From NCBI RefSeq assembly GCF_003148685.1, contig NZ_QGGR01000003.1, forward strand, positions 248,001 through 312,000: a stretch of DNA of 64,000 bases. Direction: 5' to 3'. Origin of the DNA: Actinoplanes xinjiangensis (GTDB lineage Bacteria > Actinomycetota > Actinomycetes > Mycobacteriales > Micromonosporaceae). The translations under genes were made by a program, and so were the position numbers. A model generated the notes under the pieces. That model did not search any database and had not been told where the DNA came from. It saw only the letters and a list, made by a program, of their open reading frames with translations. Below, in pieces: positions 3,675 through 18,813 of the stretch (its first letter is position 1; each line of letters begins with the position of its first letter).

Positions 3675-5354
3675 GTGACCGCTCAACTACTCATCGGACC
3701 GGTGCTGCGCAGGGTCGACGGCGACCGCGCGACCCTGTGGCTGGAGACCAGCGAGCCGGCGCAGGCTCGGGTCGAGGTGGACGGCGCGGGCGCCGGATCC
3801 GCACCGACTTTCTCGGCGTACGGCCACCACTACGCGATGGTCACGGTCGACGGCCTCGCACCCGACTCGGCGAACCCGTACCGGTTGTTTCTCGACGACC
3901 GGCAGGTCTGGCCCGAGGAGGACTCCGAGTATCCGGCCCCGGTGATCCGCACCCGGGCCGCCGACGACGCCGGCCAGCCGGTCAGCCTCATCTTCGGCTC
4001 CTGCCGGAAGGGCACCCCGCAGGTGAGCGGGCGCTGGCTGCCGCCGGACGCGCTGGACGCGTTCTCCCGGCGGCTGATGACCGATCCGGAGACCCGGCCC
4101 GACCTGCTGGTGCTGCTGGGCGACCAGGTGTATGCCGACGAGACCTCCCCCAAGGTGCGCCGGTTCCTGCGCAGTCGCCGGCGCAACGGTCACCAGGGCC
4201 CGACCGACCAGGTCGTCGCCTTCGAGGAGTACACGAAGCTCTACCTGGAGTCGTGGCGGGACCCGGAGGTGCGCTGGCTCTTCTCCACCGTGCCGAGCGT
4301 GATGATCTTCGACGATCACGAGCTGATCGACGACTGGAACACGTCCGCCTCCTGGCGCACCGACATGGCCGCCCAGTCGTGGTGGCGGGAGCGGATCTCC
4401 GGCGGCCTGGCCTCTTACTGGATCTACCAGCATCTGGGCAACCTGAGCCCGGACGAGCTGGCCGCCGACCCGCTATTCCGGAAGGTGGCGGAGGCCGAGG
4501 ACGCCACCGACCTGCTGCGCGAGTTCGGGCTGCGGGTGGACGAGCCGGAGTCCGCGGAGAACACCGATGTGCCGTACCAGTGGAGTTTCGCCCTCGACGT
4601 GGGCCGGACCCGGCTGGTCGTGCTGGACAACCGCTGCAACCGGGTGCTGACCCCGGGCGCGCGGGCGATGCTGCCGGCCGCCGAGTGGAACTGGTTCGTC
4701 GACCGGGCCCACGGCGACTACGACCACCTGGTGGTCGGTTCGTCGCTGCCGTGGCTGATGCCGCCCGCCATCCACTACCTGGAGGCGTGGAACGAGCGGA
4801 TCGCCGAGTCGTCGCATCCCCGGGCGGCGGCCTTCGGCGAGAAGGTGCGACGGACCTTCGACCTGGAGCACTGGGCCGCGTTCGGCAAGTCCTTCGCGGC
4901 CCTCGGCGAGCTGTTCCGGCGGCTCGGCGAGGGTGGTCCGGAGGCGCCCGGCCATCGGGTGGGCGCGGGTGGGGCGTACCGTGCGCCGGCCTCGATCAGC
5001 GTGCTTTCGGGTGACGTTCATCACTCGTATGTGGCGCGGGCCGACCTCGGTCACGCCATGACGACCCCGGTCTACCAGCTGACCTGCTCACCGATCCACA
5101 ACGAGGTGCCGCTGCCGCTACGGCCGCTGATGCGGGTGGCCTGGTGGCCGGGGGTGGTCCACTCGGTGCGCGCGCTGGCCCGGACGGTGTCGGTGCGCAA
5201 GCCGGCGCTGCGCTGGAAGAAGCTGGCCGGGCCGTACTTCGGCAACGCGGTCGCCACCCTGCGGCTGGACGGCGCGGTCGCCACCGCCCGCATCGAGGGC
5301 ACCACCAAGGACGGCGCCCTGCACGACGTCGCCTCGGTCGACTACCACGCCTGA
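3675..5354 (+). CDS. PhoD-like alkaline phosphatase / metallophosphatase family protein
   Basis: A 559-residue calcineurin-like phosphoesterase of the alkaline phosphatase D family. An N-terminal beta-sandwich (residues 1-95, with LIGPVLRRVDGDRATLWLET) precedes the metal site: GSCRKGTP, LVLLGDQVYADE, FDDHELIDDWN, and later SVLSGDVHHSYVAR, which give the Asp, His and Asn metal ligands. Start GTG 3675. No signal peptide or twin-arginine motif is visible, so unlike classic secreted PhoD this one may be cytoplasmic. It is transcribed away from ftsY with a 140-bp gap and ends at a strong hairpin shared with the convergent HAD gene. The substrate is unknown. Confidence 0.88.
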   Translation: MTAQLLIGPVLRRVDGDRATLWLETSEPAQARVEVDGAGAGSAPTFSAYGHHYAMVTVDGLAPDSANPYRLFLDDRQVWPEEDSEYPAPVIRTRAADDAGQPVSLIFGSCRKGTPQVSGRWLPPDALDAFSRRLMTDPETRPDLLVLLGDQVYADETSPKVRRFLRSRRRNGHQGPTDQVVAFEEYTKLYLESWRDPEVRWLFSTVPSVMIFDDHELIDDWNTSASWRTDMAAQSWWRERISGGLASYWIYQHLGNLSPDELAADPLFRKVAEAEDATDLLREFGLRVDEPESAENTDVPYQWSFALDVGRTRLVVLDNRCNRVLTPGARAMLPAAEWNWFVDRAHGDYDHLVVGSSLPWLMPPAIHYLEAWNERIAESSHPRAAAFGEKVRRTFDLEHWAAFGKSFAALGELFRRLGEGGPEAPGHRVGAGGAYRAPASISVLSGDVHHSYVARADLGHAMTTPVYQLTCSPIHNEVPLPLRPLMRVAWWPGVVHSVRALARTVSVRKPALRWKKLAGPYFGNAVATLRLDGAVATARIEGTTKDGALHDVASVDYHA

Positions 5355-5395
5355 CGAGACCGGCCCCGGCGTGATCGCCGGGGCCGGTTCGTCAG
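5352..5395. terminator. Bidirectional hairpin between convergent genes
   Basis: ACCGGCCCCGGCG (5359-5371) pairs perfectly with CGCCGGGGCCGGT (5376-5388) across a TGAT loop, extended outward by CTGACGA/TCGTCAG. There is no U-run. It lies between the ends of the phosphatase and the HAD gene. Confidence 0.7.
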
Positions 5396-5427
5396 TCGCC
5401 GAGGTGGGGCGGGCCGGCACGGTGGGA

Positions 5428-6042
5428 TCAGGCCGGCAGATCGAGAGCCTTGCGCAGATACGGTACGTGTTCCGGCCCCGTCCACCGGTATCCGGAGAGC
5501 CCGGCCGACCGCGCGCCACGGATCACCCGATCGTCGTCGTCGACGAAGAGGACGTGCTTGGGCAGCACCCTGAGCTGGAGGCAGGCCTGCTGGAAGAACT
5601 CCGGGGCGGGCTTGTGCACCTTCAGCTCCCAGGAGCTGAGCACCATGTCGACCTCGTCGGTGAGCCCGAGCGCGTCCAGATCGGGGCGCAGGCGGTCGGT
5701 GGCGTTGGTGGCGATCGCGACCTTGCGGCCGCCGGCCCGCACCTCGCGGACGAAGGCGAGCACCTCGGGGTCGACCTCGCCGCGGTAGGACTGCCACTCG
5801 GCCACCGCGGCGGCGGCCTGCCCGGCGTCCAGGGGCAGCCGGTCGGCGACCAGCCTCATCCACTCGGCGTCGGTGATCTCGCCGGCCATGGCGGGCCGGT
5901 AGATGTCCCACGACATCGCCGTCTCCAGCAGCGCGGCGGGTTTGAGGCCGTATCCGACCTCGACGGCGATCATCGGGGCCGGGTCCCAGCGGCGCAGCAC
6001 GCCGTCCAGGTCGATCATCAGGGCCTGGGCGCGGTCGCGCAT
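5428..6042 (-). CDS. HAD-superfamily hydrolase (subfamily IA-like)
   Basis: A 204-residue haloacid dehalogenase fold hydrolase. Motif I is ALMIDLDGVLRRWDP (nucleophile Asp near residue 12), motif II is VAIATNATD, the Lys of motif III falls in WELKVHKPAPEFF, and motif IV is VLFVDDDDRVIRGARSAGL. The insert between motifs I and II is a small helical cap, as in subfamily IA phosphatases. It starts 9 bases after the smc stop and is likely co-transcribed with smc. Substrate unknown; family members are phosphatases or phosphonatases. Confidence 0.88.
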   Translation of the reverse strand: MRDRAQALMIDLDGVLRRWDPAPMIAVEVGYGLKPAALLETAMSWDIYRPAMAGEITDAEWMRLVADRLPLDAGQAAAAVAEWQSYRGEVDPEVLAFVREVRAGGRKVAIATNATDRLRPDLDALGLTDEVDMVLSSWELKVHKPAPEFFQQACLQLRVLPKHVLFVDDDDRVIRGARSAGLSGYRWTGPEHVPYLRKALDLPA

Positions 6043-6051
6043 GTGGTTCCT

Positions 6052-9000
6052 CTACTCCTCCGGATCGGGGACGAGGCGCTGGCTGATCACCTGGGTGACG
6101 CCGGCGCGCATCGTGACGCCGTACAGGGCGTCCGCGACCTCCATCGTCCGTTTCTGGTGCGTGATGATGAGCAGCTGGCTCTTCTCGCGCAGCTGTCGGA
6201 AGAGGGTAATCAACCGGCCCAGGTTCACGTCGTCGAGGGCCGCCTCCACCTCGTCCATGATGTAGAACGGCGACGGCCGGGCCCGGAAGATGGCACACAG
6301 CATGGCCACCGCGGTCAGCGAGCGCTCGCCACCGGAGAGCAGCGACAGCCGTTTGATCTTCTTGCCCGGCGGGCGGGCCTCCACCTCGACGCCGGTGGTG
6401 AGCATGTCCTCCGGGTCGGTCAGCACCAGCCGGCCCTCACCGCCGGGGAAGAGCACCTGGAAGACGGTCTGGAACTCCCGCGCGGTGTCCTCGAACGCCG
6501 ACGTGAAGACCTCCAGGATCCGTTCGTCGACGTCCTTGACCACGGTGAGCAGGTCCTTGCGGGTGGCCTTGAGGTCCTCGAGCTGGTCGGAGAGGAATTT
6601 GTACCGCTCCTCCAGGGCCGCGAACTCCTCCAAGGCGAGCGGGTTGACCTTGCCGAGCAGGGTGAGGTCACGCTCCGCCTTGTTGGCCCGCTTCTCCTGG
6701 GTGGGCCGGTGGAACGGGGCGGGCTCAGGTTCCGGCCTGCCGTCCTTCTCGGCCAGCGCCACCTCCGCCTGGGTCGGCGGTACCAGCTGGTCCGGGCCGT
6801 ACTCGCTGATCAGCGTCTCGACGTCGAGCGAGAAGTCCTCGGCGGCCTTCGCCTCCAGCTGCTCGATCCGCATCCGCTGCTCGGCGCGGGCCATCTCGTC
6901 GCGGTGCACCTCGCTGGTGAGCCGCTCCAGCTCCGACAGGAGGCGCTTGGCGTGGGCCCGTACCTCCTGGAGCTCGGCCTCCCGGCTGGTCCGCTCGCTG
7001 GCGATCCGGTCGCGGCGCTCGGCCGCGGCGGCCAGCGAGACGGCGACGTGTTCCAGGGCCGCGGCAGCGCCGTGCGCGACGGCGCGGGCGATCTCGGCGC
7101 CGCGGGCCCGGGCCGCCCGCCTCGCGGCGGCCCGTTCCCGGGCCTGCCGTTCCTGGGCGGCCTGGCGCAACAACGAGTCGGCGCGGCCGGCGATCGACGA
7201 GACACGTTCCTCAGCGGTACGGACCGCCAGCCGTACCTCCATCTCGTTCTGCCGGGACTGGGGCACGAGCGCGGCGAGCCGGTCGCGTTCCTCGGTGGAC
7301 GGCTCCTCGTCGAGCGGGGTGTCCTCGGCCAGGCGCAGCCGTTCCTCCAGCTCGGCGACCCGCATCAGGTCGGCTTCGCGGGCCGCCTCGGCCTTCTGCC
7401 GGGAGGCGCCGAGCCGCTCGCTCTCCGCCTTGGCGGACCGGGCGGCGGCACCCAGCTCGGCCAGTCGGCGGGCGGCCGCGTTGCGCTCGCCCTCGGCGGC
7501 CCGCTTGGCCTGGGCGGCGACGGCGACCGCCTGCTTGAGTTCGGCGACCTCGGCCCGGGCGGCGCCGAGCTGCTCCTTGACCTCGGTGATGGTCTGTTCG
7601 GCGACGGCCCGTCTCGCCTTGGCCTCGTCGACCGCGGCCTGGACCTCGATGTAGCTGGTCGCCTTCGCCGAGCCACCGGCCGCCGCGTAGGTGCCGAGCA
7701 GGTCGCCCTCGGGGGTGACCGCGCGCAGCTCGCTGTTGGTGGCGATCAGGGCGGCGGCCGCGGCCAGGTCCGGGACGATCACCACGTCACGCAGCGCCCG
7801 GTGGACGGCGGGCCGGATCTGCTCCGGGCAGTCGACCACCTCGGGCGCCCAGACGGCGCCCTCCGGCAGGTTCGGCCGCAGGCTGGCGAGCGACCCCTGC
7901 ATGCCGGGCCCGGCGGATCCGGCGACCACCAGGTCGGCCCGGCCGGCGTCAGCGATCTTGAGGGTACGCATCGCCTCGATCGCCTCGTCCACACCGGACA
8001 GGGCGACCGCGTCGGCCAGCCCGCCCAGGGCGGCGGCGAGTGCGACCTCGTGACCGGGGCGCACGCTCAGCAGCGACGCGAGGCTGCCGAGCAGGCCGGG
8101 CACCTGACCGGCGCGGGCCAGCAGCGCCCCGGCGCCGTCCTTGCGCTTGAGGCCCATGGCGAGGGCTTCCTCGCGGGCCTTCCAGCTGGCCGCGTCCTTC
8201 TCGGCGGCCCGCTCGGTGTCGTTGAGTTCGCGGACCACGGCCGCGGCCCGGTCGTGGGCGGCCACCGCCTCGTCGTGCCGCGCGTCGAGGTCGGCGTTGT
8301 CCCGGTCGGCCTCGGTGGACTCGGCCGAGACCAGGTCGACCTCGGCCTGCGCGGCCTCGGCCCGCATCAGCGCGTCCTCGTGGGCGATCGCCAGGCGCTC
8401 GATCTCCTCGGCGGCGCTGGTGGTGCGGGCGCGGGCCGCGTTCACGTTGCCGGTGAGCTTGGCCAGACCCTCGCGGCGGTCGGCGATCGCCTTGGCGGCG
8501 GCCCGCAGCTCCCCCTCGGCGGCGGCCAGCTGGCGTTCCTGTTCCTGCCGGTGCTCGACCGCCTCGGCCAGCCGCATCTGGTCCTCGGTGAGGGCCTCGC
8601 GCAGCTCCTCCTCCTGCTCCCGGACCCGTTCGGCCTCGGCCTCGAGCATCTCCGGGTCGCGGCCGGGACGTTCGTCGTCGGGGGTGGCGGCCAGGTGCCG
8701 CAGCCGTTCGGTGGCCAGTTGCTCGGTCGACCGGAACCGTTCCTGGAGGGTGGACAGCCGGTACCAGGCGTCCTGTGCGGCCTGCAGTAACGGCGCGTCC
8801 TCGGCGTGCGCGAACTCCAGGTCGGCCAGCATCTGCTGGACCTCGCGGTTCTCCTCCTCGACCTGGCCGCGGCGCTCCCGCATCGCCGACTCGTCGGCGA
8901 TCTCCTTGTCCAGGGTGCTGCGCAGGGTGTGCAGGTCGTCGGCGAGCAGCCGCAGGCGGGCGTCGCGCAGGTCGGACTGGATGCCGGCGGCGCGGCGGGC

Positions 9001-9633
9001 CACCTCGGCCTGCCGGCCGAGCGGCTTCAGCTGCCGCCTCAGCTCGGTGGTCAGGTCCCCCAGGCGATTCAGGTTGACCTGCATGGCGTCCAGCTTGCGG
9101 ATCGCCTTTTCCTTGCGTTTGCGATGCTTGAGTACGCCCGCCGCCTCCTCGATGAAGGAACGGCGGTCCTCGGGCTTGGCGTGCAGCATGGCGTCGAGCC
9201 GGCCCTGCCCGACGATGATGTGCATCTCCCGGCCGATGCCGGAGTCGCTGAGCAGCTCCTGGATGTCGAGCAACCGGCAGGAGTTGCCGTTGATCTCGTA
9301 CTCGCTGGCGCCGTCCCGGAACATCCGGCGGGTGATCGACACCTCGGTGTAGTCGATCGGCAGGGCACCGTCGTTGTTGTCGATCGTGAGCGTCACCTCG
9401 GCGCGGCCCAGGGGCGCGCGGCCGGCCGTACCGGCGAAGATGACGTCCTCCATCTTGCCGCCGCGTAGCGCCTTGGCGCCCTGCTCGCCGAGAACCCAGG
9501 CGATGGCGTCGACGACGTTGGACTTGCCGGAGCCGTTCGGCCCCACCACGCAGGTGATGCCGGGCTCCAGCCGCAACGTGGTGGCGGAGGCGAAGGACTT
9601 GAAGCCCTTGACCGTCAGGCTCTTGAGGTGCAC
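6052..9633 (-). CDS. smc: Chromosome segregation ATPase SMC
   Basis: Full-length SMC condensin subunit (1193 aa). Walker A is VVGPNGSGKSNVVDAIAWV near residue 32, followed by a long heptad-rich coiled coil (about residues 165-480), the hinge domain (about 495-650, with glycine-rich GLLGSLASLLSVRPG), the returning coiled coil to about 1000, the ABC signature LSGGERSLTAVAMLC, and Walker B FYIMDEVEAALDDVN. With ScpA/ScpB it extrudes DNA loops and helps segregate chromosomes. Neighbours ftsY and amt fit the conserved order, but mutM, which often lies next to smc apart from a small acyP gene, is here separated by a 5-kb accessory segment. A terminator lies upstream, so smc probably has its own promoter in 9634-9717. 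Confidence 0.98.
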   Translation of the reverse strand: MHLKSLTVKGFKSFASATTLRLEPGITCVVGPNGSGKSNVVDAIAWVLGEQGAKALRGGKMEDVIFAGTAGRAPLGRAEVTLTIDNNDGALPIDYTEVSITRRMFRDGASEYEINGNSCRLLDIQELLSDSGIGREMHIIVGQGRLDAMLHAKPEDRRSFIEEAAGVLKHRKRKEKAIRKLDAMQVNLNRLGDLTTELRRQLKPLGRQAEVARRAAGIQSDLRDARLRLLADDLHTLRSTLDKEIADESAMRERRGQVEEENREVQQMLADLEFAHAEDAPLLQAAQDAWYRLSTLQERFRSTEQLATERLRHLAATPDDERPGRDPEMLEAEAERVREQEEELREALTEDQMRLAEAVEHRQEQERQLAAAEGELRAAAKAIADRREGLAKLTGNVNAARARTTSAAEEIERLAIAHEDALMRAEAAQAEVDLVSAESTEADRDNADLDARHDEAVAAHDRAAAVVRELNDTERAAEKDAASWKAREEALAMGLKRKDGAGALLARAGQVPGLLGSLASLLSVRPGHEVALAAALGGLADAVALSGVDEAIEAMRTLKIADAGRADLVVAGSAGPGMQGSLASLRPNLPEGAVWAPEVVDCPEQIRPAVHRALRDVVIVPDLAAAAALIATNSELRAVTPEGDLLGTYAAAGGSAKATSYIEVQAAVDEAKARRAVAEQTITEVKEQLGAARAEVAELKQAVAVAAQAKRAAEGERNAAARRLAELGAAARSAKAESERLGASRQKAEAAREADLMRVAELEERLRLAEDTPLDEEPSTEERDRLAALVPQSRQNEMEVRLAVRTAEERVSSIAGRADSLLRQAAQERQARERAAARRAARARGAEIARAVAHGAAAALEHVAVSLAAAAERRDRIASERTSREAELQEVRAHAKRLLSELERLTSEVHRDEMARAEQRMRIEQLEAKAAEDFSLDVETLISEYGPDQLVPPTQAEVALAEKDGRPEPEPAPFHRPTQEKRANKAERDLTLLGKVNPLALEEFAALEERYKFLSDQLEDLKATRKDLLTVVKDVDERILEVFTSAFEDTAREFQTVFQVLFPGGEGRLVLTDPEDMLTTGVEVEARPPGKKIKRLSLLSGGERSLTAVAMLCAIFRARPSPFYIMDEVEAALDDVNLGRLITLFRQLREKSQLLIITHQKRTMEVADALYGVTMRAGVTQVISQRLVPDPEE

Positions 9634-9717
9634 GGATCTCCGGAGGGTCGTCTGCGTTCGTCTGCTGGGTGGCAGGCTACCCGCCGATCACCGCCGAGAC
9701 GGGAATCACGTGGCGAG

Positions 9718-9762
9718 AAAAAAGCTGCGCGCCGCCACGGAAGTGGAGGCGCGCTTTTTCTC
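9718..9762 (-). terminator. Intrinsic terminator, effective in both directions
   Basis: GCGCGCC (9728-9734) and GGCGCGC (9749-9755) enclose a second stem CCAC/GTGG capped by a GGAA tetraloop. Seven A (9718-9724) on one side and five T (9756-9760) on the other give U-runs for both strands, strongest for the minus strand. It ends the small coiled-coil gene at 9838-10032 before smc begins. Confidence 0.9.
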
Positions 9763-9837
9763 TGGTGCATCTATGGTGCGAGGGGATGTGACGCCGGATG
9801 GCTACCCCGCAGTACCGCCCGGCATCGGGTGGGGGCC

Positions 9838-10032
9838 TCAGGTCAGAGCGGGCTCGGTGAGCCGTGCGAAATCGTCCGCTTCCACGGCCGCCGCCGCTAG
9901 ACGATCATTCTCCGCCTGGAGACGGGTGACCTCGAACTCGAGGGCCTGAACCCTGGAGCGCAGTCGGGTGACCTCGTCGAGGAGGCGCCGGTCGGGCGCC
10001 GCACCTACGTGGCCAAAGAGGGCCTTCGCCAT
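9838..10032 (-). CDS. Small coiled-coil protein of unknown function
   Basis: A 64-residue protein beginning MAKALFGHVG. After a short N-terminal segment, residues about 15-50 form a leucine-zipper-like coiled coil (heptads through RLRSRVQALEFEVTRLQAEN), and the tail ends DDFARLTEPALT. The ATG lies behind AAGGAG at a normal distance, and an intrinsic terminator follows the stop. These support a real gene. It appears to be one of the short conserved actinobacterial hypotheticals. A role as an adaptor or oligomerisation partner is only a guess. Confidence 0.75.
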   Translation of the reverse strand: MAKALFGHVGAAPDRRLLDEVTRLRSRVQALEFEVTRLQAENDRLAAAAVEADDFARLTEPALT

Positions 10033-10756
10033 CGTGACTCCTTGTGACGCGCTGCGTCGATTTTGGGTGGTGCGCTGTCTTTTATCGCTGCCGGAAGAGC
10101 CGGCCAGCGTGGCGCCCTTTCACGCACCCGAGCGGTTCGGTGCGCAGTGAACCTCATGCGAACCGACACACCACATGCTCACGGGCACGCGTGAGCGCAG
10201 AAACCCGCCAATGAAACTGCGGGGCTCTTTATGGTGCAAGACCTCAGACCACGGTTGAACCGAGGCATGAGTGGGCGCGACTGGCGACAACTCCATAGTC
10301 CGCTGATACCCATCCGCCGTCAAGCCGAGGGGGTGCCGGTTGCGCGCGCGAGTCAAGTGAATCACGCCACCAAGGCACCTCAGGGGTATCCCACCAGGTC
10401 TTATACATCTTTCGCGGGCATGTCGATCTCGTCAAGAGGGGTCCGTTTTCGCAAGATCCGACGTACTCGGGTGCGCTCGTCCCCTTCCGTACGGCCGGCC
10501 GGCGCCCAATGTCGTACGGAGGGTCTCCGGCACGGGACTCCGGGTCACCGGACGCCGTTCCGGGGATGGTGGCGCGACGGATCGACGAGCGGGGCCGACG
10601 CGGGCGGCACGGAGCCCGCCATCTCGGCTCGCACGTCGTGGCCTTTCGGGCAAAAACGGGCAAACACGGCTGACAAATAGTGCTAAAAGGTACGTAATTG
10701 TGTCGCCTAGCCGACATGCTCCAGCAACTTCGCCGGTTTGTCTCGTTGCCTCCAGC
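10033..10756. promoter_or_regulatory. Long non-coding upstream region of the exopolysaccharide-like operon
   Basis: About 720 bp with no convincing gene: six-frame reading gives only short, poorly started frames. Near its right end TGACAA (10671-10676) and GTAATT (10694-10699) are spaced by 17, a plausible housekeeping promoter, preceded by the direct repeat CGGGCAAAAACGGGCAAAC. If this promoter is used, transcription begins close to 10706. The size of the region suggests regulated expression, but no known riboswitch could be matched by eye. Confidence 0.45.
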
Positions 10757-12280
10757 GTGAATCCGACCCCGTCGCGCGAGCGCATCTGTCTGCTCACCGG
10801 CGGCGGGTACCCGTACCGGCGGGACGCCCTCGGAGGATGGTGCCGGACCCTCGTCGAGGGGCTGCGCCGGTTCCGCTTCGAGTTGCTGACCGTCACGGAC
10901 CGTGAACTACCGTCCGCACCCGCGTACCCGCTCCCGTTCAATGTCGGCTCCGCGCACGCCGCCGCGCTGGGCCGGGACCCGGCCCGTGCCGAACGGCGGC
11001 GCGGCCCGGTGCCCGACGGTGCGGCCGATGCCGCCGCCCTGCTCTGCCGCGGTCTGCTCGCCGACGAGACACCGGTCACCGCCCTGTTCGCCGACGGCCT
11101 CCGGCGCCTCACCGGGCTCTGCCCGCCCGGCGACGACACCGACCCGCTGGCCGCGCTGCCGCTCACCGACGCCCTCCAGGACGCCTGGCGGCAACGACCG
11201 GCGCACACCGCCGACGGCACGCCACTGCCCCGGCTCAGCGTGCGCGACGCACGGACCGCGGCCACGCTGCTCCGCCACGCCCTGCGCGCCGTCACCGTGC
11301 CGGTGCCCGAGGTCGAACTCGTCCACTGCGTCGGCGGCACCACCCCGCTGCTCGCCGCGCTCGCCGGCCACTGGCGCGCCGGCACGCCACTGCTGCTCAC
11401 CGAGGCGCGCGCCGCCGTACCCCGGCAGCGGCCCGCCGAGGACCGGCTGTCCCCCAGCGTCCGCACCGTGCTGCGGCGGTTCCGGATCGCCGTCGCCCGC
11501 ACCGGCTACACCGAGGCCGAGCTGATCGCGCCGCTCAGCACCTACCACCACGGATGGGCCCTCGGCCACGGCGCGGCGCCCACCCGGCTCGTCCAGGTGC
11601 CCGCCGGCGTCGACCCGCGCGAATACCCCGGTGCCGCCGAGGTCGCCGAGACCCCCACCGTCGTGTGGGCCGGCAGCGGCGGCCCCGACAGCGGACTCGG
11701 CCTGGTGCTCGAAGCGTTCACCGAGGTCGCCGCCGCCGTCCCCGGTGTGGTGCTGCACCTCGTCGGCGTCACCGCCGCCCACGAGGAGCACTGTGCCGAA
11801 CAGATCGAGCGGACCGGGCTGGGGCGGACCATCCGGCTGCACCCGCTGCCCGCCGACCCCCGCGACCGGTACACCGTCGGCCAGGTCGTCGCGCACGTCC
11901 CCGGGCCCGCCGACCCGCCGTACCGGCTCGTCGAGGCCATGATGTCCGGCCGCGCCGTCGTCGGCGTCGACGTCGGGCCCGCCGCCGAGACCCTCGGCGC
12001 CACCGGGATCCTCGTCCCCGCCGGCGACCCGTCCGAACTCGCCATCGCCATCGTCGGCCTGCTCCGCGCCCCCGGGCGACGGCGAGCCCTCGGCGATGCC
12101 GCCCGCCAGCGCGCCCTCAGCCACTTCACCGTCGACCGGGTCGTCCGGGTGTACGGCGCGCTCTACACCGACCTGGCCGCGCCACCCCCGGCGACGGCCT
12201 TCGAACTGGCGCTCACCGTTCCCGCGCCCCGCACCACGACGCCGGCCACCGTGCGCTGGCTCACCCGGGAGACCTCATGA
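10757..12280 (+). CDS. PelF-like GT4-family glycosyltransferase
   Basis: A retaining glycosyltransferase of the GT-B fold (507 aa from GTG 10757). The N-terminal segment RICLLTGGGYPYRRDALGGW and the following FELLTVTD and FNVGSAHAAAL match the DUF3492 N-domain of PelF, the cytoplasmic polymerase of Pel (GalNAc-rich) exopolysaccharide. The middle has a VHCVGG...LLLTEAR stretch comparable to PelF's HS...LLTEHG. The C-domain carries VVWAGSGGPDSGLGLVLEAF and RLVEAMMSGRAVVGVDVG. The first glutamate of the usual E-x7-E motif is not present, and the TEH histidine is Ala, so activity may be altered. An in-frame GTG at 10700 would lie at the predicted transcription start, so 10757 is preferred. The stop overlaps the next ATG. 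Confidence 0.75.
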   Translation: MNPTPSRERICLLTGGGYPYRRDALGGWCRTLVEGLRRFRFELLTVTDRELPSAPAYPLPFNVGSAHAAALGRDPARAERRRGPVPDGAADAAALLCRGLLADETPVTALFADGLRRLTGLCPPGDDTDPLAALPLTDALQDAWRQRPAHTADGTPLPRLSVRDARTAATLLRHALRAVTVPVPEVELVHCVGGTTPLLAALAGHWRAGTPLLLTEARAAVPRQRPAEDRLSPSVRTVLRRFRIAVARTGYTEAELIAPLSTYHHGWALGHGAAPTRLVQVPAGVDPREYPGAAEVAETPTVVWAGSGGPDSGLGLVLEAFTEVAAAVPGVVLHLVGVTAAHEEHCAEQIERTGLGRTIRLHPLPADPRDRYTVGQVVAHVPGPADPPYRLVEAMMSGRAVVGVDVGPAAETLGATGILVPAGDPSELAIAIVGLLRAPGRRRALGDAARQRALSHFTVDRVVRVYGALYTDLAAPPPATAFELALTVPAPRTTTPATVRWLTRETS

Positions 12281-14451
12281 CCATCACACCGCGCGGGAAC
12301 GCCACCACACGTACCGCCCGCAACCGCATCCGCCGCCGGCAGAACCAGAACGCCGCCGGGGAACCCCGCCACGCCGCACCCGGCCAGCCCGAACTCGCCC
12401 CGCCGCGACGGCGGGGCGGACGGCACGCCGCCGACGAGCCGGTCCCGGACGACACCACGGCCGCCGCGGACACCGACGTCGCATTCCCGGCGCCGGCCTG
12501 GAACCCGTGGGCCACCAGCACACGGCAGGCGCTGCCGGCCGGGAGCACCGGCCCGCTCGGGGACCCGGGGGTGGTGGACCGCCGGAGCCTGTGGGCGGCA
12601 CCCGAGGACGAGAGACACCGGGGCGGTCGGAACGCCTGGGCGGAGAACACCCCCGCGACAGGGTGGGCGGAGCCGGCCGGCGGGGACTTCACCCCGCTGA
12701 GCGACTGGACCGACCACACCGGCGTGAACGTCGTGCCGCACGGCATCCGCGACGACGGCGCCGTCCCGGCCGGCGGCTGGACCGACCACACCGGTGTGAA
12801 CGTCCTGCCCTACGGCATCCGGGACGACGGTGCCGTCCCGGCCGGCGGCTGGACCGACCACATCGGGCCGAACGCCCGGGCCGACGACGCCTGGGCCGGC
12901 GGCACCGGCACGGCGGGTGGCTGGGGTGATCCGGCCGGGGGTACCGGTGGGTGGGCCGACACCTCCGAACGCCGGGCCGAGATCGGTTCGGCCGGGTCCG
13001 GGCCCTCGGGAGCGGCGGGGGCCGACGCCGTGGACGCGTACGTCGACGAGTTGTGGCGCGCACTCGACGATGGGGAACCGGACGACGAGGAGGCCTCTTG
13101 CGCCGATGGTGGGGGGCGTGGTTCGTACCGTCGCAGGGGTGTCAAGGACCGCCGGAAAGCGGGACGGCGGCACATCGGCCGCTGGTCGCATGCGCGGCGG
13201 ACGCGAAGCGGCTATCTGAACGCCGCCATGGTCCGGTGTGGGCTCTACCTCGGCGCGCTGAGCGTCGCGATCGCCGCCGCCGAACCGCTCGGCCGGGTGG
13301 CGTGGCCGGTGCCCGCCGTGATGGTCCTGCTCGGATGGACCGCCGCCCAGGGCCTGACCAGCATCGGAGTGACCGTCACCGGCCGTGGTGGGCCGGCCGC
13401 CGCGGCCCGCACCGTCGGCGCCGGGTTCGCCGCGGTCGTCGGGCTCTGGTGCGCGCTCGTGTGGATCGCGCCGGACGCCCTCCTCGGTCCGAACCGCCTG
13501 CTCGCCGCGACCGCCGGCGTCGGCGGGCTGGTCACCCTCGCCACCGTCACCGCCGCGCTCGTCACCCGGGCCGAAGGTGTGATCGCCGGCTGGTACGTGC
13601 CGTGCTGGCTGCTCGCCGCCGCCGTCATGGCCGACGCCGCCGGAGTCCCCGAAGCCGCCGCCGTCCCGGTGCAGACACTGCTGCCGGCGGCGATGGTGGC
13701 GGTCGCCGTCCGGGCGTTCCGTCCCGCGCTGCTGCCCGCCTCGGCGACCCGCACCAGGCGCCCGGCATCCGCCGCCGGCGACCCGCGGGTGAGCGCCGCC
13801 CCCGTCCGCGGGCAGCGTGCCGTCTCCGCCGGCACCCGCCCGGGGAGGTTCACCGCCGCCGACCGCCGGCGGGCGTTCGCCTACCTGATCATCGGGGCCG
13901 CGCAGGCGGTGTCCGTGGTCCTGCTGTGGCGCGGCGGCCCGGCCGTCATGCCACTGCCCGCCGCCCTGCCGCTGCTGCTCGCCGTGCCACTGCTCGAAGG
14001 ACTGATCGGCTGGCACACCGACCGGCTCAACGCCGGTCTGGACTCCGCCGAGACGCCCGAGGAGTTCGACCGGCACGTACGCAACGTCACCGCCATCACC
14101 CTGGCCGGGCTGCTGCCGCCACTCGTCGCCGGGTGCGCGCTGCTGGTCGCCGCGTACCGGCTGCCGTACGGGTTCTCGGCCGTCCCCGGCGCCCGGGAGG
14201 CCGTTCTCGCACTCGCCGCCGCCACCCTGCTCGGCGGGGTGTTCGCGGTCACCTTCCTACTGGCCGCACGCACCCGGCACGGGATCGCCGCGACCCTCGC
14301 CGCCATCCCGCCCCTGGCCGCCGCCGTGCTGGCGGTGGCCGCCCCACCGGCCGGGCTCCTGCCCGCCGCCGTCGCGGTACTCGCCGCGACCCATCTGGCC
14401 GGCCTGCTCATCGTCGCCCTGACCGCCGCCGACCTACGGAGGACGCCGTGA
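12277..14451 (+). CDS. Large multi-pass membrane protein with repetitive N-terminal region (PelG-like position)
   Basis: A 724-residue protein in two parts. Residues 1-310 are low in complexity and probably disordered, and hold two near-identical 24-residue units (from about residues 144 and 168, each starting WTDHTGVNV and ending GAVPAGG) plus a degenerate third unit. Residues about 312-722 hold roughly twelve hydrophobic helices, with a polar loop WHTDRLNAGLDSAETPEEF between helices 8 and 9. Twelve helices next to a PelF-like enzyme recall PelG, the MOP-family Pel transporter, but direct similarity is weak by eye, so the assignment rests on topology and position. It overlaps its neighbours by ATGA and GTGA, so the three genes form one translationally coupled unit. 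Confidence 0.7.
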   Translation: MTITPRGNATTRTARNRIRRRQNQNAAGEPRHAAPGQPELAPPRRRGGRHAADEPVPDDTTAAADTDVAFPAPAWNPWATSTRQALPAGSTGPLGDPGVVDRRSLWAAPEDERHRGGRNAWAENTPATGWAEPAGGDFTPLSDWTDHTGVNVVPHGIRDDGAVPAGGWTDHTGVNVLPYGIRDDGAVPAGGWTDHIGPNARADDAWAGGTGTAGGWGDPAGGTGGWADTSERRAEIGSAGSGPSGAAGADAVDAYVDELWRALDDGEPDDEEASCADGGGRGSYRRRGVKDRRKAGRRHIGRWSHARRTRSGYLNAAMVRCGLYLGALSVAIAAAEPLGRVAWPVPAVMVLLGWTAAQGLTSIGVTVTGRGGPAAAARTVGAGFAAVVGLWCALVWIAPDALLGPNRLLAATAGVGGLVTLATVTAALVTRAEGVIAGWYVPCWLLAAAVMADAAGVPEAAAVPVQTLLPAAMVAVAVRAFRPALLPASATRTRRPASAAGDPRVSAAPVRGQRAVSAGTRPGRFTAADRRRAFAYLIIGAAQAVSVVLLWRGGPAVMPLPAALPLLLAVPLLEGLIGWHTDRLNAGLDSAETPEEFDRHVRNVTAITLAGLLPPLVAGCALLVAAYRLPYGFSAVPGAREAVLALAAATLLGGVFAVTFLLAARTRHGIAATLAAIPPLAAAVLAVAAPPAGLLPAAVAVLAATHLAGLLIVALTAADLRRTP
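12706..12921 (+). repeat. In-frame 72-bp tandem repeat inside the membrane protein gene
   Basis: Unit boundaries are marked by TGG codons at 12706, 12778 and 12850, exactly 72 bp (24 codons) apart. The first two units differ at a few third positions and two or three residues; the third diverges after 10 residues. Confidence 0.8.
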
Positions 14452-15005
14452 AAACCCTGTTCCCCCCGTACGCCCACCCGTCGCCCGAGCTGGAACTGGA
14501 CGCCGACACCTGGATCGTCCGCGAACAGCCCGGCGACCGCCGCACACTCCACCAGTCACTCGGCCGCATCGACCTGGACTGGGGCAGCCGTTCCCTCGCC
14601 GACGTCCTCGCCGACGTCGACGCCTGGCGTGCCGACGGGGTCGAGGGACTGTTCCTCGACCGTGCGCCGGCCGGCTCGGGAGGAGTGGGCCCGGTCGCCC
14701 TGACCGTCCGCCTCGCCGCCCGGCGCGGCCTGCACCGGGTCGTGCTCAATCCGGGGGTGCCGACGCATCCGCTCTACCGGGACCTCGGTGTGCGGATCTG
14801 CACCTTCGAAGGACCGTGGTCGGCCTATCAGAGCTGGGACGGCGACGGGGTACGACCCGGCGACGGCCACATCGTGCACGGGGTGCCCGCGCCGTTGCTC
14901 ACCGCCGCCCGCCGCCTGATGGGCCGGCGGGGAGCCGGGTTCGGGCTGGCCACGGACGCCGGCCCCCGGGTGGCCGCGACCCCCGCCCCGGCCACTCCCG
15001 GCTGA
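14448..15005 (+). CDS. Short spherulin-4-like (GH135-type fold) protein
   Basis: A 185-residue protein starting at a GTG that overlaps the previous stop. It opens TLFPPYAHPSPELEL, and its core is LDWGSRSLADVLADVDAWRA followed by DGVEGLFLDRAP. This matches the spherulin-4 pattern (Y-x-P near the N-terminus, then GxRxLADVxADIDxY and VDGIFLDE). Spherulin-4 proteins include fungal Sph3, a GH135 galactosaminidase tied to galactosaminogalactan, a polymer chemically close to Pel. This copy is shorter than Sph3, has no signal peptide, and has Arg where DE is usual after FLD, so it may be a non-catalytic or cytoplasmic version. Context suggests a role in the same polysaccharide pathway. Confidence 0.6.
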   Translation: MKTLFPPYAHPSPELELDADTWIVREQPGDRRTLHQSLGRIDLDWGSRSLADVLADVDAWRADGVEGLFLDRAPAGSGGVGPVALTVRLAARRGLHRVVLNPGVPTHPLYRDLGVRICTFEGPWSAYQSWDGDGVRPGDGHIVHGVPAPLLTAARRLMGRRGAGFGLATDAGPRVAATPAPATPG

Positions 15006-15018
15006 GCCGGCCCGCGGT

Positions 15019-15054
15019 GTGGAGTCGCGCGGAACAGGTACGGCGCGACTCCAC
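15019..15054. terminator. Hairpin between convergent spherulin-like gene and mutM
   Basis: GTGGAGTCGCGC (15019-15030) pairs perfectly with GCGCGACTCCAC (15043-15054) across a 12-base loop. There is no U-run. It lies in the 61-bp gap between two gene ends. Confidence 0.65.
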
Positions 15055-15066
15055 CCGACCGGCTCG

Positions 15067-15918
15067 TCAGACGGCTTTCCGGGGCCGGGGCTGGCAGCGG
15101 GGACAGCTGAAGCTGGAGCGGTTCATGAACTGCTCGCGCCGGATGACGGCACCGCACCGGTGACAGGGCTCGTTCTCGCGGCCGTAGGCGTTGAGGGAGC
15201 GGTCGAAGTAGCCGCTCTCGCCGTTGACGTCGACATACAGCTCGTCGAAGCTGGTGCCGCCGGCGACGATCGCCTCGCCGAGGACGTCACGCACGTGGCC
15301 CAGCAGGCGGGCGACGGCCGGCCGGGTGAGCTGATCGGTGGGGCGGGTGCCATGCAGTCCGGCACGCCACAGGGCCTCGTCGGCGTAGATGTTGCCGACA
15401 CCGGAGATCAGGGTCTGGTCGAGCAGGGCGCGTTTGACCTCGGTGTGCCGGCCGCGCATGCGGGCGTTGAAGGCCTCGTCGTCGAAGAGCGGGTCCATCG
15501 GGTCCCGGGCGATGTGCGAGATCTCGTCGGGCAACTCGGCGCCGCCCTCGGAGACCGACAGGCCGCCGAACGTGCGCTGATCGACGAACCGCAGCTGGGG
15601 TCCACCGTCGGTGAAGGTGAACCGGACCCGCAGATGTTTCTCGTCGGCCGCGTCGGCGGGCTGCATCAGCAGCTGGCCGGACATGCCGAGGTGACCGATG
15701 ACGGCGTCCCCGGAGTCGAGCGGCAGCCACAGATATTTGCCACGACGGGAGACGTCCAGCACGGTACGCCCGGCGAGGACGGCGGCGAAGTGGGCGTCGC
15801 CGGGCAGGTGCCGGCGGATCGCGCGCGGGTGCAGCACCTCGGCGGTGGCGATGGTGCGGCCGGTCACCCACTTCGCCAGGCCCATGCGGACGGTCTCGAC
15901 CTCGGGAAGTTCGGGCAC
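15067..15918 (-). CDS. mutM: Formamidopyrimidine-DNA glycosylase MutM/Fpg
   Basis: Base-excision repair enzyme (283 aa) that removes 8-oxoguanine and cuts the strand. The GTG start at 15918 gives [10 protein letters not shown] immediately after the initiator, placing the catalytic Pro2 and Glu3 at the mature N-terminus. The beta-hairpin lysine is in [11 protein letters not shown]. The helix-two-turn-helix contains [14 protein letters not shown], and the C-terminal zinc finger is CHRCG...CPRCQ. An upstream in-frame extension to 16164 is not needed. It is the last gene of a long minus-strand run that includes plsX, rnc and a glycosyltransferase. Confidence 0.97.
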
Positions 15919-15929
15919 TTCACGGTCCT

Positions 15930-17105
15930 TTACAACGTGTACGGCCAGACGGTCACCAGGTAGGCGCCGTACCAGAGACCGAACAGCGCCCACGCGGTGA
16001 TCGACAGGACCGCGACCCGGGGGCGGGCGCGGGCGGCCGCCACTACGGCGGGCAGCAGCGTCAACAGTACGGGCAGCAACAGCCGCGGCTTGGAGTGGTA
16101 GAAGCCGGCCTGGCCGTAGACGAGGATCATCGCGACCACGCCGTAGACGGCGATCGGGAGCCACGGTTTCCCGGCCAGCGCCACCCCGGCCGCGGCGAGT
16201 GCCGCCAGCAGGATCAGCGCGACGCTCATCGGGACCCAGCCGTCGCCGGAGCGCAGCGTGGTCCAGAGGAACTTCCCGGTGCTGGCGCCGTAGTCGAACG
16301 AGGTGCCCCAGCCCGCGGTCTGGATCTTGAACCAGGCGGTGAGGTCACCGACCCGGTAGGCGACCCAGCCGAGGTAGAGCGGCACCCCGGCGAGCGCGAC
16401 CGCGGCCGCGGTGAGCGGCTTCCACGTCGGCTGGCCGTCGTGCTGGTCGTCGCGCCTGAGGGCGAGCAGCGCGGCCACGGCGAGACCGAGCGCGGCGGCG
16501 GCACCGGTGGGCCGGCTCAGCGCGGTGAGCAGACCGAGCAGGCCGGCCGCCCACCAGACCCGGCGGTGCGCGGCGACGAACATGCCGGCGACGAGGGCGA
16601 TGAAGAGGCTCTCCGAGTACGCCATGGACAGCACCACGGAGGCCGGGGCCGAGCAGCAGATCGCGACCAGGGCCCAGCCGGCCCGCTTACCGTAGAGCGA
16701 CGATCCCAGCAGGTGCAGGGCGATCGCGGCACAGACGGAGGCGAGCCAGGCCACGGTGAGGGCGGCCACACTCGGGTCGATGCCGATGGCGGCACCGAGC
16801 CGGATGAGCATCGGGTAGACCGGGAAGAAGGCGAGTTCGTTGCCTTCGAGCTGACCGGAGGCGCCGTAGGTGTAGCCCTCCGGATAACCGTCCATGGCGA
16901 CCCGCAGGAACCAGCCGGCGTCCCAGATGAGGAGCCGTTCCCAGAGCGAGCGGGGCTCGGCGACACCGCCGTTCAACCACCAGATCATCACGAGCTGGCC
17001 GACCCGGGTGGCGGCGAGGATCCCGACCGCCGCGCCGATGCCGTTCAGCCCGCCCGCTCTGTCCCACAGATCTTCCTTGGTGGGAGTCTCTGTGAGAGCG
17101 GTCAT
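15930..17105 (-). CDS. PIG-V-like mannosyltransferase family membrane protein
   Basis: A 391-residue polytopic membrane protein with roughly ten helices. Near the N-terminus [21 protein letters not shown] fits the WD-x3-Y/F...GY signature of PIG-V/GT-C mannosyltransferases, and [15 protein letters not shown] matches the following FFPLYP signature. Later [13 protein letters not shown] and [13 protein letters not shown] are also typical. The enzymes use polyprenyl-phosphate mannose on the outer face of the membrane; the acceptor here is unknown. The ATG at 17105 overlaps the rnc stop (ATGA), and the stop is 11 bases before mutM, so all three are co-transcribed. Confidence 0.82.
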
Positions 17106-17827
17106 GACTCGGTCTTCTCGGACTGCTCCGTCAAGGTCCGCCACGCCGCGGCGGCGGCCCGCTGCTCGGCCTGCTTCTTGCTGCGGCCCTCGGAGCCGCC
17201 GTACCGCTCGCCGGCGACGACCACCCAGGCAGTGAACGTCTTCGCGTGATCCGGGCCGGAATCCTCGATCTCGTAGTCCGGCACGCCCAGGCCCAGCGCC
17301 GCGGTCAGCTCCTGGAGGCTGGTCTTCCAGTCCAGCGCGGCGCCCCGGCCCGCCGACTCGGCCATCAGCGGGTCGAACAGCCGGTGGATCACCTCGCCGG
17401 CGATCTCCAGCCCGTGCTCCAGATAGATCGCACCGAGCAGGGCCTCCAGAGTGTCGGCCAGGATGCTCGCCTTGTCCCGTCCGCCGGTGGTCTCCTCGCC
17501 CTTGCCGAGCAGCAGATGCGGGCCGAGACCCTCCGGGCCCAGGCCCCGCGCCACGTCGGCCAGCGCGTGCATGTTGACCACGCTGGCCCGCAGCTTGGCG
17601 AGCTGCCCCTCGGGCAGGTCCGGGTGGTTGTGGAAGAGAGCGGACGTGATCACCACGCCGAGGACCGAGTCGCCGAGGAACTCCAGGCGCTCGTTGGTCG
17701 GCAGGCCGCCGTTCTCGTAGGCGAACGAACGGTGGGTCAGTGCGCGTTCCAGCAGCTCCGGCTTGAACGGCACCCCGAACGCCTCCTCCAGCGGTTCAGT
17801 GGAGGGGCGACGACGCTTGTCAATCAT
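17102..17827 (-). CDS. rnc: Ribonuclease III
   Basis: Double-strand-specific endoribonuclease (241 aa) for rRNA and mRNA processing. The catalytic domain has the RNase III signature [15 protein letters not shown] and the second acidic site in [17 protein letters not shown]-terminal dsRNA-binding domain follows (about residues 165-235) with [19 protein letters not shown] and [14 protein letters not shown]. Length is normal. It overlaps plsX upstream and the mannosyltransferase downstream by 4 bases each. Confidence 0.98.
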
Positions 17828-18813
17828 GCGATACCTCGCTGAGCGCTCAGAGAATCGGCGATCGCCGCGACCGAGTTGCGGCGGTGCAGGTCGGCCGCGA
17901 GCGCGATGCCCGCGGCGAGATCCGGACCGGTGGCCGCGCCGTGGCAGACGACGACCGTGCCGGAGACGCCGAGCAGCAGCGCCGCCCGGGCCGGTGGATC
18001 AGTGTTCCGGGAGGGCGGGCCGGACAGCGCGTACGCCGTTTCCAGCCCTTTGAGCAGGACATTTCCAGTGAATCCGTCGGTCACCACGACGTCGGCGGCC
18101 CGGCCCAGCACGATGTCGCTGCCCTCGACCAGGCCGGCGTAACGGGCACCGCCCGGCAACGGCAGGTCGACGAGCTGGGCGGGCAGGGCCCGGCGCAGGC
18201 GGTCGCCCTTGCCGGGCTCGGTGCCGATGGTGAGAAGCCCCACACGGGGTGTGGGCATGCGAAGAACGATCGAGGCGTACGCCGCACCGAGCCGGGCGTG
18301 CCACGCGAGGGTCTCCTCGTCGGGGTCGACGGACGAACCCACGTCGAGCAGGACGAGACGGCCGGCGGCCGTGGGCAGTACGGCGGTCAGCGCGGGCCGG
18401 CGGACTCCCGGCCAGCGACCCAGTTCCCGGGCGGCGGAGAGCACCGTGGCCCGGGTGTCACCGGCGGAGACGAGGGCGTCGGCACGGCCCTCGGCGAGGG
18501 CGCGCACCGCGGCGCCGACGGCATCGGCCGGGGCGGGGACGGTGGTGATGCGGCGGCGGTCGCCCGGTTTCAGGGCGGCCAGAACCGAGTCGGCGGCATC
18601 AGCCGGGCCGACCAGCGTCAGGTGCAGGGCCGGGTCTGCCTTGCAAGCACGCAGAGCGCCGTCAACCACGACGGCGGGAGCCTGGTCCCCGCCGAGGAGG
18701 TCGACGGCGATCCGCGCGGTGCCCGGCTCCCCGACAGTGCGCTGTCCAGGAGCCGTGGCACCGGTGGTTCGCCACCGCTCGGGCACGACCCGCCCGATGA
18801 TCGGGCGCGTCAC
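17824..18813 (-). CDS. plsX: Phosphate acyltransferase PlsX
   Basis: Makes acyl-phosphate from acyl-ACP for phospholipid synthesis. The 329-residue protein begins with about 32 non-conserved residues, then [20 protein letters not shown], the PlsX opening, and later [20 protein letters not shown], the family signature. The internal segment [25 protein letters not shown] is the usual DxGA...P region with Ser for Ala. Position between rpmF and rnc is the standard actinobacterial arrangement. The true start may lie slightly downstream of 18813. Confidence 0.9.

Follow-up and report, generated by a model that had tools for sequence, protein, structure and literature searches.

The window analyzed here, 64,000 nucleotides of the 10.8 Mb genome of Actinoplanes xinjiangensis (Actinoplanes group), carries a unit of three forward-strand genes in the interval between smc and fpg, encoding in order a PelF-like protein, a membrane protein, and a spherulin. 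The unit and the features around it are as follows.

6052..9633, minus strand: SMC, the conserved upstream flank (Pfam)
10701..10716, no strand: inverted repeat TGTCG-N6-CGACA (TGTCGCCTAGCCGACA), its end lying 40 bases upstream of the PelF-like start; TGTCGCCTA plus GAC is identical in 15 aligned sequences
10757..12280, plus strand: PelF-like (DUF3492) GT4 protein, 507 aa, with donor-site residues replaced (AGSGGPDSGL, PADPPYRLVEAMM, TEAR)
12277..14451, plus strand: membrane protein, 724 aa, with a low-complexity N-terminus of ~300 aa, repetitive in part, followed by a predicted MOP/MATE-like helical domain (residues ~308–724)
14448..15005, plus strand: Spherulin-4 (Sph3-like) protein, 185 aa, modeled as a barrel of eight strands, with no helix following strands 1 and 2; signal peptide predicted to be absent
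15067..15954, minus strand: Fpg (formamidopyrimidine-DNA glycosylase), the conserved downstream flank, start approximate (Pfam)

An ATGA overlap joins the PelF-like ORF to the membrane ORF and a GTGA overlap joins the latter to the spherulin ORF, bearing out the translational coupling that the initial annotation had described. A GTG at 10700 offers an alternative start for the PelF-like gene; we favor 10757 because CTG or TTG stands at the 10700 position in some relatives. Neighboring genes typed with Pfam (3675–18813) include PhoD, HAD, SMC, Fpg, PIG-V-like, RNase III, and PlsX-like genes and no Pel gene, PelD, PelE, and PelA-type (PelADA) genes included, in agreement with the earlier remark that PelA/D/E-like genes are not adjacent. 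Between smc and the unit lies a small conserved gene (MAKALYGHV..., 9841–10032, minus strand), with 80–91% identity to its homolog at locus L103 across 24 same-genus loci.

The inverted repeat occurs as a single exact copy in the window genome, is kept in relatives, and is a possible operator. A wider regulon was rejected, as allowing up to 2 mismatches gave 19 genome matches versus 23 for the reversed control. A link to sporangium control through the TcrA box was likewise discarded (9 sites versus 9.5 expected, none upstream of the three-gene unit).

The PelF-like protein has lost donor-site residues

The first protein matches DUF3492 in Pfam with an E-value of 4.9e-14 (53.2 bits against a cut-off of 23.3) and stands above the cut-off for three Pfam glycosyltransferase families (Glyco_trans_1_4, 52.7 against 27), which confirms its annotation as a PelF-like glycosyltransferase by family. 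It fails the 100-bit cut-off of the NCBIfam PelF equivalog at 41.6 bits, while the Asanoa PelF from the same locus scores 181.9 bits. Ten relatives divide around this cut-off, with six above (L121, L113, L052, L064, L104, L107) and four below (L103, L111, L051, L068). The motif changes described below are not all-or-none, since Phytohabitans L107, in which Gln replaces the Arg, remains above the cut-off at 143.6 bits.

GT4 enzymes rely on an Arg, a Lys, and a Glu at the UDP-sugar site, the Glu belonging to the motif called EX7E. PelF proteins of full operons carry GRIDPLKDL, SEG.PYT..EAM, and EHG.YLRE, and the window protein has AGSGGPDSGL, ADPPYRLVEAM, and EAR..VPR at the same positions; in the alignment to relatives, the Arg, Lys, and Glu are thus replaced by Ser, Ser, and Ala. 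The available text of PMC10185581 proposes R325, K330, and E405 of P. aeruginosa PelF as UDP-glucose sites. We mapped these sites through nine intact relatives, in which the spacings are 5 (R-K) and 82 (R-E) compared with 5 and 80 in P. aeruginosa PelF, itself outside the alignment.

Of 55 named smc-fpg loci that contain PelF, 47 have jointly lost the Arg, the Lys, and the first Glu of EX7E, as have all 25 same-genus loci read, some genomes being counted in both sets. All three are retained in six of the 55 (four Asanoa, Micromonospora sp. CPCC 205371, and one metagenome-assembled genome [MAG]); Phytohabitans suffuscus retains two (Lys and Glu), and the PelF of P. flavus is truncated. Full-operon rows retain them throughout (20/20, one row lacking the EHG stretch in the alignment), and the PelF motifs are intact in 20/20 class-level loci. 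The second Glu of EX7E persists in 54/55 named rows, the remaining row being truncated. The altered motifs are themselves conserved, with 7/10 and 11/17 columns invariant versus 140/507 overall (P = 0.006 and 0.0013), in segments picked after viewing an alignment of close kin and with part of motif 2 (EAM.SG) also present in intact relatives. The EHG segment displays no excess conservation (3/10 columns invariant). The contacts of the Arg and Lys might instead be made by a glycine-rich loop. We infer from these substitutions that PelF-like activity has been lost, and the 507-residue protein, a probable pseudo-glycosyltransferase, probably has another job because the residues that it should need are gone.

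The membrane protein has a predicted MOP fold

The second protein had been placed in the PelG position. By sequence this finds no echo: Pfam gave no match at E 0.1, NCBIfam none at E 1, and the PelG family PF16933 matched neither the protein nor the locus in a search that recovered 2/14 control genomes; comparison with solved structures returned one row of 34 residues (E 0.98). The predicted structure agrees better with the assignment. The modeled part (last 417 residues, pLDDT 88.3) contains 12 long helices; WzxE is the first Foldseek row for this domain and the only one below 0.001 (E 7e-4), and a MATE structure aligns with a Z-score of 18.6 (RMSD 5.3 over 362 residues), compared with 9.4 for the first MFS row. 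The model thus points to a MOP-superfamily (MATE/Wzx) fold without a PelG sequence match.

A domain delineated by eye in the first 75 residues (~LEA.GI.D..A...YG...VFAL) is present in Asanoa, Phytohabitans, Spirilliplanes, and several full-operon homologs. It is missing from the Actinoplanes rows, and the window match begins at profile position 57, not 5. At the class level, many genomes of one genus (g85) match this domain briefly (profile ~5–76), seemingly in other proteins. The N-terminus of the window protein contains a repeated stretch, WTDHTGVNV..GIRDDGAVPAGG (~12700–12880); the corresponding region of relatives contains different repeats and varies in length from a few residues to several hundred. 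An ARAGORN tRNA-Gly call (12484–12563, minus strand) within the repetitive 5′ part of the gene is probably spurious.

The spherulin resembles fungal Sph3

The third protein scores 34 bits against PF12138 (Spherulin4; cut-off 30.2), covering profile positions 64–170 of 239. Its model (pLDDT 88.6) has eight strands and no helix of at least 4 residues after strands 1 and 2, and its best structural matches are Aspergillus Sph3 (Foldseek E 1.2e-6; 5C5G/5D6T, Z 18.2, RMSD 2.6 over 174 residues). The hydrolase domains of GH191, Ega3, and PelA follow at Z 10.9–12.2, no better than unrelated barrels. Profile and predicted fold together point to GH135/Spherulin4, as initially annotated; for this protein and its partners, the profile searches and models gave no better match to an unrelated family. 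A 16-row spherulin alignment found no match among solved structures by sequence, and a wider alignment (A7) recovered Sph3. The protein is predicted to be cytosolic, since strand 1 starts at the coupled start and leaves no room for a signal peptide.

We take the catalytic residues of Sph3 to be Asp-166, Glu-167, and Glu-222. The window spherulin retains the aligned Asp and the third Glu and has Arg at the Glu-167 position, where Glu is also absent from 7/8 full-operon and other relative rows. Among 106 smc-fpg spherulin rows (some genomes represented twice), 104 keep the Asp; the third Glu has become Asp in 36 and Ala in 2. Judged from these residues, hydrolysis by the window protein seems possible; for some relatives it is in doubt. 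The glycosyltransferase and spherulin residues are both altered at L111 and L112.

The unit is conserved at the smc-fpg locus

A PelF-like ortholog was listed in 35/35 same-genus genomes (51–93% identity, some in two pieces), with no internal stop in any of the 35 matches; in 24 same-order genomes the best match had an E-value of 1.6e-11 over residues 174–501. In 25 same-genus loci the unit adjoins fpg and, where covered, smc, with a gap to fpg that is sometimes at least 2 kb. The membrane gene is absent from three of these 25. Actinoplanes thus keeps the three-gene unit whole or in part.

The named loci, collected by spherulin profile search, all belong to Micromonosporaceae, mainly Actinoplanes, Paractinoplanes, and allies. 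Spherulin is present in 66/66 because it was the query, loci without it being uncounted. PelF, membrane protein, and spherulin occur together in 50/66, a wide co-occurrence that argues against chance. PelF and spherulin alone are found in 5/66 (Actinoplanes sp. TFC3, RD1, Symbioplanes lichenis, Winogradskya humida, and Phytohabitans flavus with its truncated PelF) and spherulin without the other two in 11/66 (six Dactylosporangium, two Planosporangium, Micromonospora pattaloongensis, and two MAGs). The spherulin profile matches 91 of 200 sampled family genomes, or 21/44 by genus. A CAP-domain gene precedes the unit in 29/66 named loci; in the window the best CAP match was no better than E 0.3. 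At locus L110, a GH114-like gene (9252–9851) follows the smc-fpg spherulin, so the ancestral unit may have had GH114.

Averaged over columns, identity in same-genus alignments amounts to 85% for spherulin (16 rows), 59% for PelF (16), and 31% for the membrane protein (14). To gauge selection, we compared the window with 10 relatives (10 pairs, NG86), restricting the membrane gene to its last 400 codons, and obtained dN/dS values of 0.13–0.32 for PelF, 0.19–0.48 for the membrane domain, and 0.04–0.19 for spherulin. All three genes are under purifying selection, strongest on spherulin, and the upper value for the membrane gene allows partial relaxation. Conservation and dN/dS together rule out chance or a pseudogene.

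Relation to full Agd3-type operons

At the class level, the membrane family was matched in 30/296 genomes, several only over a short stretch. Twenty loci with long matches (of 44 listed) have an adjacent intact PelF in 20, Agd3 in 18, spherulin in 18, and GH114 in 11, counts that flank limits may lower for some genes. These full operons are of the agd3 operon type set out in the available text of PMC7229062. The order glycosyltransferase, membrane protein, spherulin is found in the window and its relatives, and some full operons have other genes before spherulin.

Of 35 same-genus genomes, 16 have a second, full-type PelF (15 loci read), and these 16 also carry Agd3. In the window genome, DUF3492 and Spherulin4 match once each; neither GH114 nor Agd3 (CE18) was detected in it, the Agd3 search being positive in both control genomes as well as in those 16. 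Agd3 was sought by protein search with positive controls, since the PF25116 profile matched nothing anywhere. Genomes G068 and G172 have an smc-fpg spherulin without PelF at the locus and a full operon elsewhere, so their spherulin could be acting in trans; such a partner is missing from the window genome.

In a PelF tree of 58 rows, the 28 smc-fpg proteins are split from the 30 full-operon proteins with SH-aLRT support of 99, in a quick search that flagged three branches as long and four rows as unusual in composition. Motif states on this tree require at least three changes, partial changes counted.

A proposed retired and repurposed synthase

Our best explanation, to which we assign a probability of about 0.5, is that the unit is a catalytically retired, repurposed descendant of a bacterial Agd3/Pel/GAG operon. 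The ancestor would have been an actinobacterial Agd3-type Pel/GAG operon (Agd3 - PelF - MOP exporter - Spherulin-4 - GH114), a copy of which, without Agd3, would have come to reside in the smc-fpg interval of Micromonosporaceae. The canonical synthase role would have ended in the Actinoplanes lineage: alignments and a model show PelF there without the Arg and Lys that bind the nucleotide sugar and without the first Glu of EX7E, the exporter without its N-terminal domain, and the spherulin without two of the barrel helices. The unit would then no longer polymerize, its activity having given way to a new job in which pseudo-PelF and the cytosolic Sph3-like barrel may be binding partners of a glycan or a lipid-linked sugar on the inner side of the MOP protein. 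More tentatively, and with the odds somewhat against it, we propose that this conserved Actinoplanes pseudo-synthase (pseudo-glycosyltransferase, MOP protein, and cytosolic Sph3-like barrel) acts as a sensor or gate for a glycan intermediate.

Both a complex among the three proteins and a ligand are putative. A three-part complex is weakened by the loci that have PelF and spherulin but no membrane gene, and we propose spherulin as the core of the unit because it alone survives loss of the other two genes. Against retirement, the PelF-like protein still exceeds three Pfam glycosyltransferase cut-offs, and the spherulin may still hydrolyze, since its Asp is retained and so, in the window, is its third Glu.

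The Pfam scores would also fit an active transferase that uses another donor (a lipid-phosphate sugar, for instance) and in which AGSGGPDSGL forms a new phosphate loop. The conservation of the altered motifs and the near-universal second Glu of EX7E favor such an enzyme, and lipid-linked substrates would be a natural fit for a partner with a MOP fold. However, full-operon proteins have an acceptor-side EHG..YLRE motif that is also replaced here, and we consider this reading unlikely. Less probable again is slow decay of a redundant operon copy, in which only spherulin would have been retained, for a separate job. Decay would fit the recurrent lack of PelF and membrane genes, the three or more motif changes, the lowest dN/dS in spherulin, and the full operons of G068 and G172 where spherulin could act, but uninterrupted PelF frames in all 35 same-genus matches and the low PelF dN/dS speak against it. 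Least probable is a minimal Pel-like synthase along the lines of the initial annotation, in which PelF would polymerize GalNAc or a sugar like it, with export by the MOP protein and trimming by spherulin: families and gene order fit, and the scheme may hold in Asanoa, whose copies at the locus retain all tested residues, but the window and 25/25 other same-genus loci lack the Arg, Lys, and first Glu, the protein falls below the PelF cut-off, GH114 and Agd3 are undetected in the window genome, and the membrane gene, or both partners of spherulin, can be absent.

Annotation by family name, which would imply a Pel/GAG exopolysaccharide capacity across this sporangium-forming actinomycete group, is probably wrong. 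If the unit is repurposed, its loci would form a natural series in which a synthase becomes something else: intact in Asanoa, altered in Phytohabitans and Actinoplanes, and reduced to spherulin in Dactylosporangium. It would also be a candidate, open to testing, for a role of PelF-like and Sph3-like proteins other than catalysis.

Comparison with known systems

In the open-licence PMC literature, we found neither a PelF/spherulin unit in Actinoplanes nor reuse of Pel/GAG parts as a non-synthetic device. The imp, wps-1/2/3, and gsf clusters of Actinoplanes missouriensis (PMC12691653, PMC13390465) are likewise glycan genes of this genus, studied there by deletion, but the available text describes them as Wzx/Wzy or GtrA type, and the words PelF and spherulin are absent from the main texts. 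Gram-positive loci with only pelF and pelG recognized appear in the available text of PMC7112194. Like the Gram-positive pelDEADAFG operon, as presented in the available text of Whitfield et al. 2020 (PMC7112168), the window unit has a PelF-like glycosyltransferase adjoining a membrane protein of predicted MOP fold; unlike it, the unit has no PelD, PelE, or PelADA among the tested neighbors, leaves PF16933 unmatched, and fails the PelF cut-off. The spherulin has fungal Sph3 (GH135, 5C5G/5D6T) as its top structural match (Z 18.2) and differs from it in its predicted cytosolic location, in the missing helices after strands 1 and 2, and in the residue after the aligned catalytic Asp, which is Arg rather than Glu.

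Also close are the Actinobacterial agd3 operons, already published with a glycosyltransferase, a multi-spanning membrane protein, Agd3, and sometimes spherulin-4 (Bamford et al. 2020, available text of PMC7229062). The window unit shares with these Pel/GAG-like operons a cytoplasmic glycosyltransferase, a multi-spanning membrane protein, and the Spherulin-4 that some of them contain, with homologs in the same order. It differs from the operons as described there in having no adjacent Agd3, GH114, or epimerase, in the apparent loss of the glycosyltransferase donor residues and the membrane N-terminal domain, in its shortened spherulin, and in its fixed smc-fpg position. The conserved gene set is of a known kind, and what is new is its form, which is apparently retired from catalysis.
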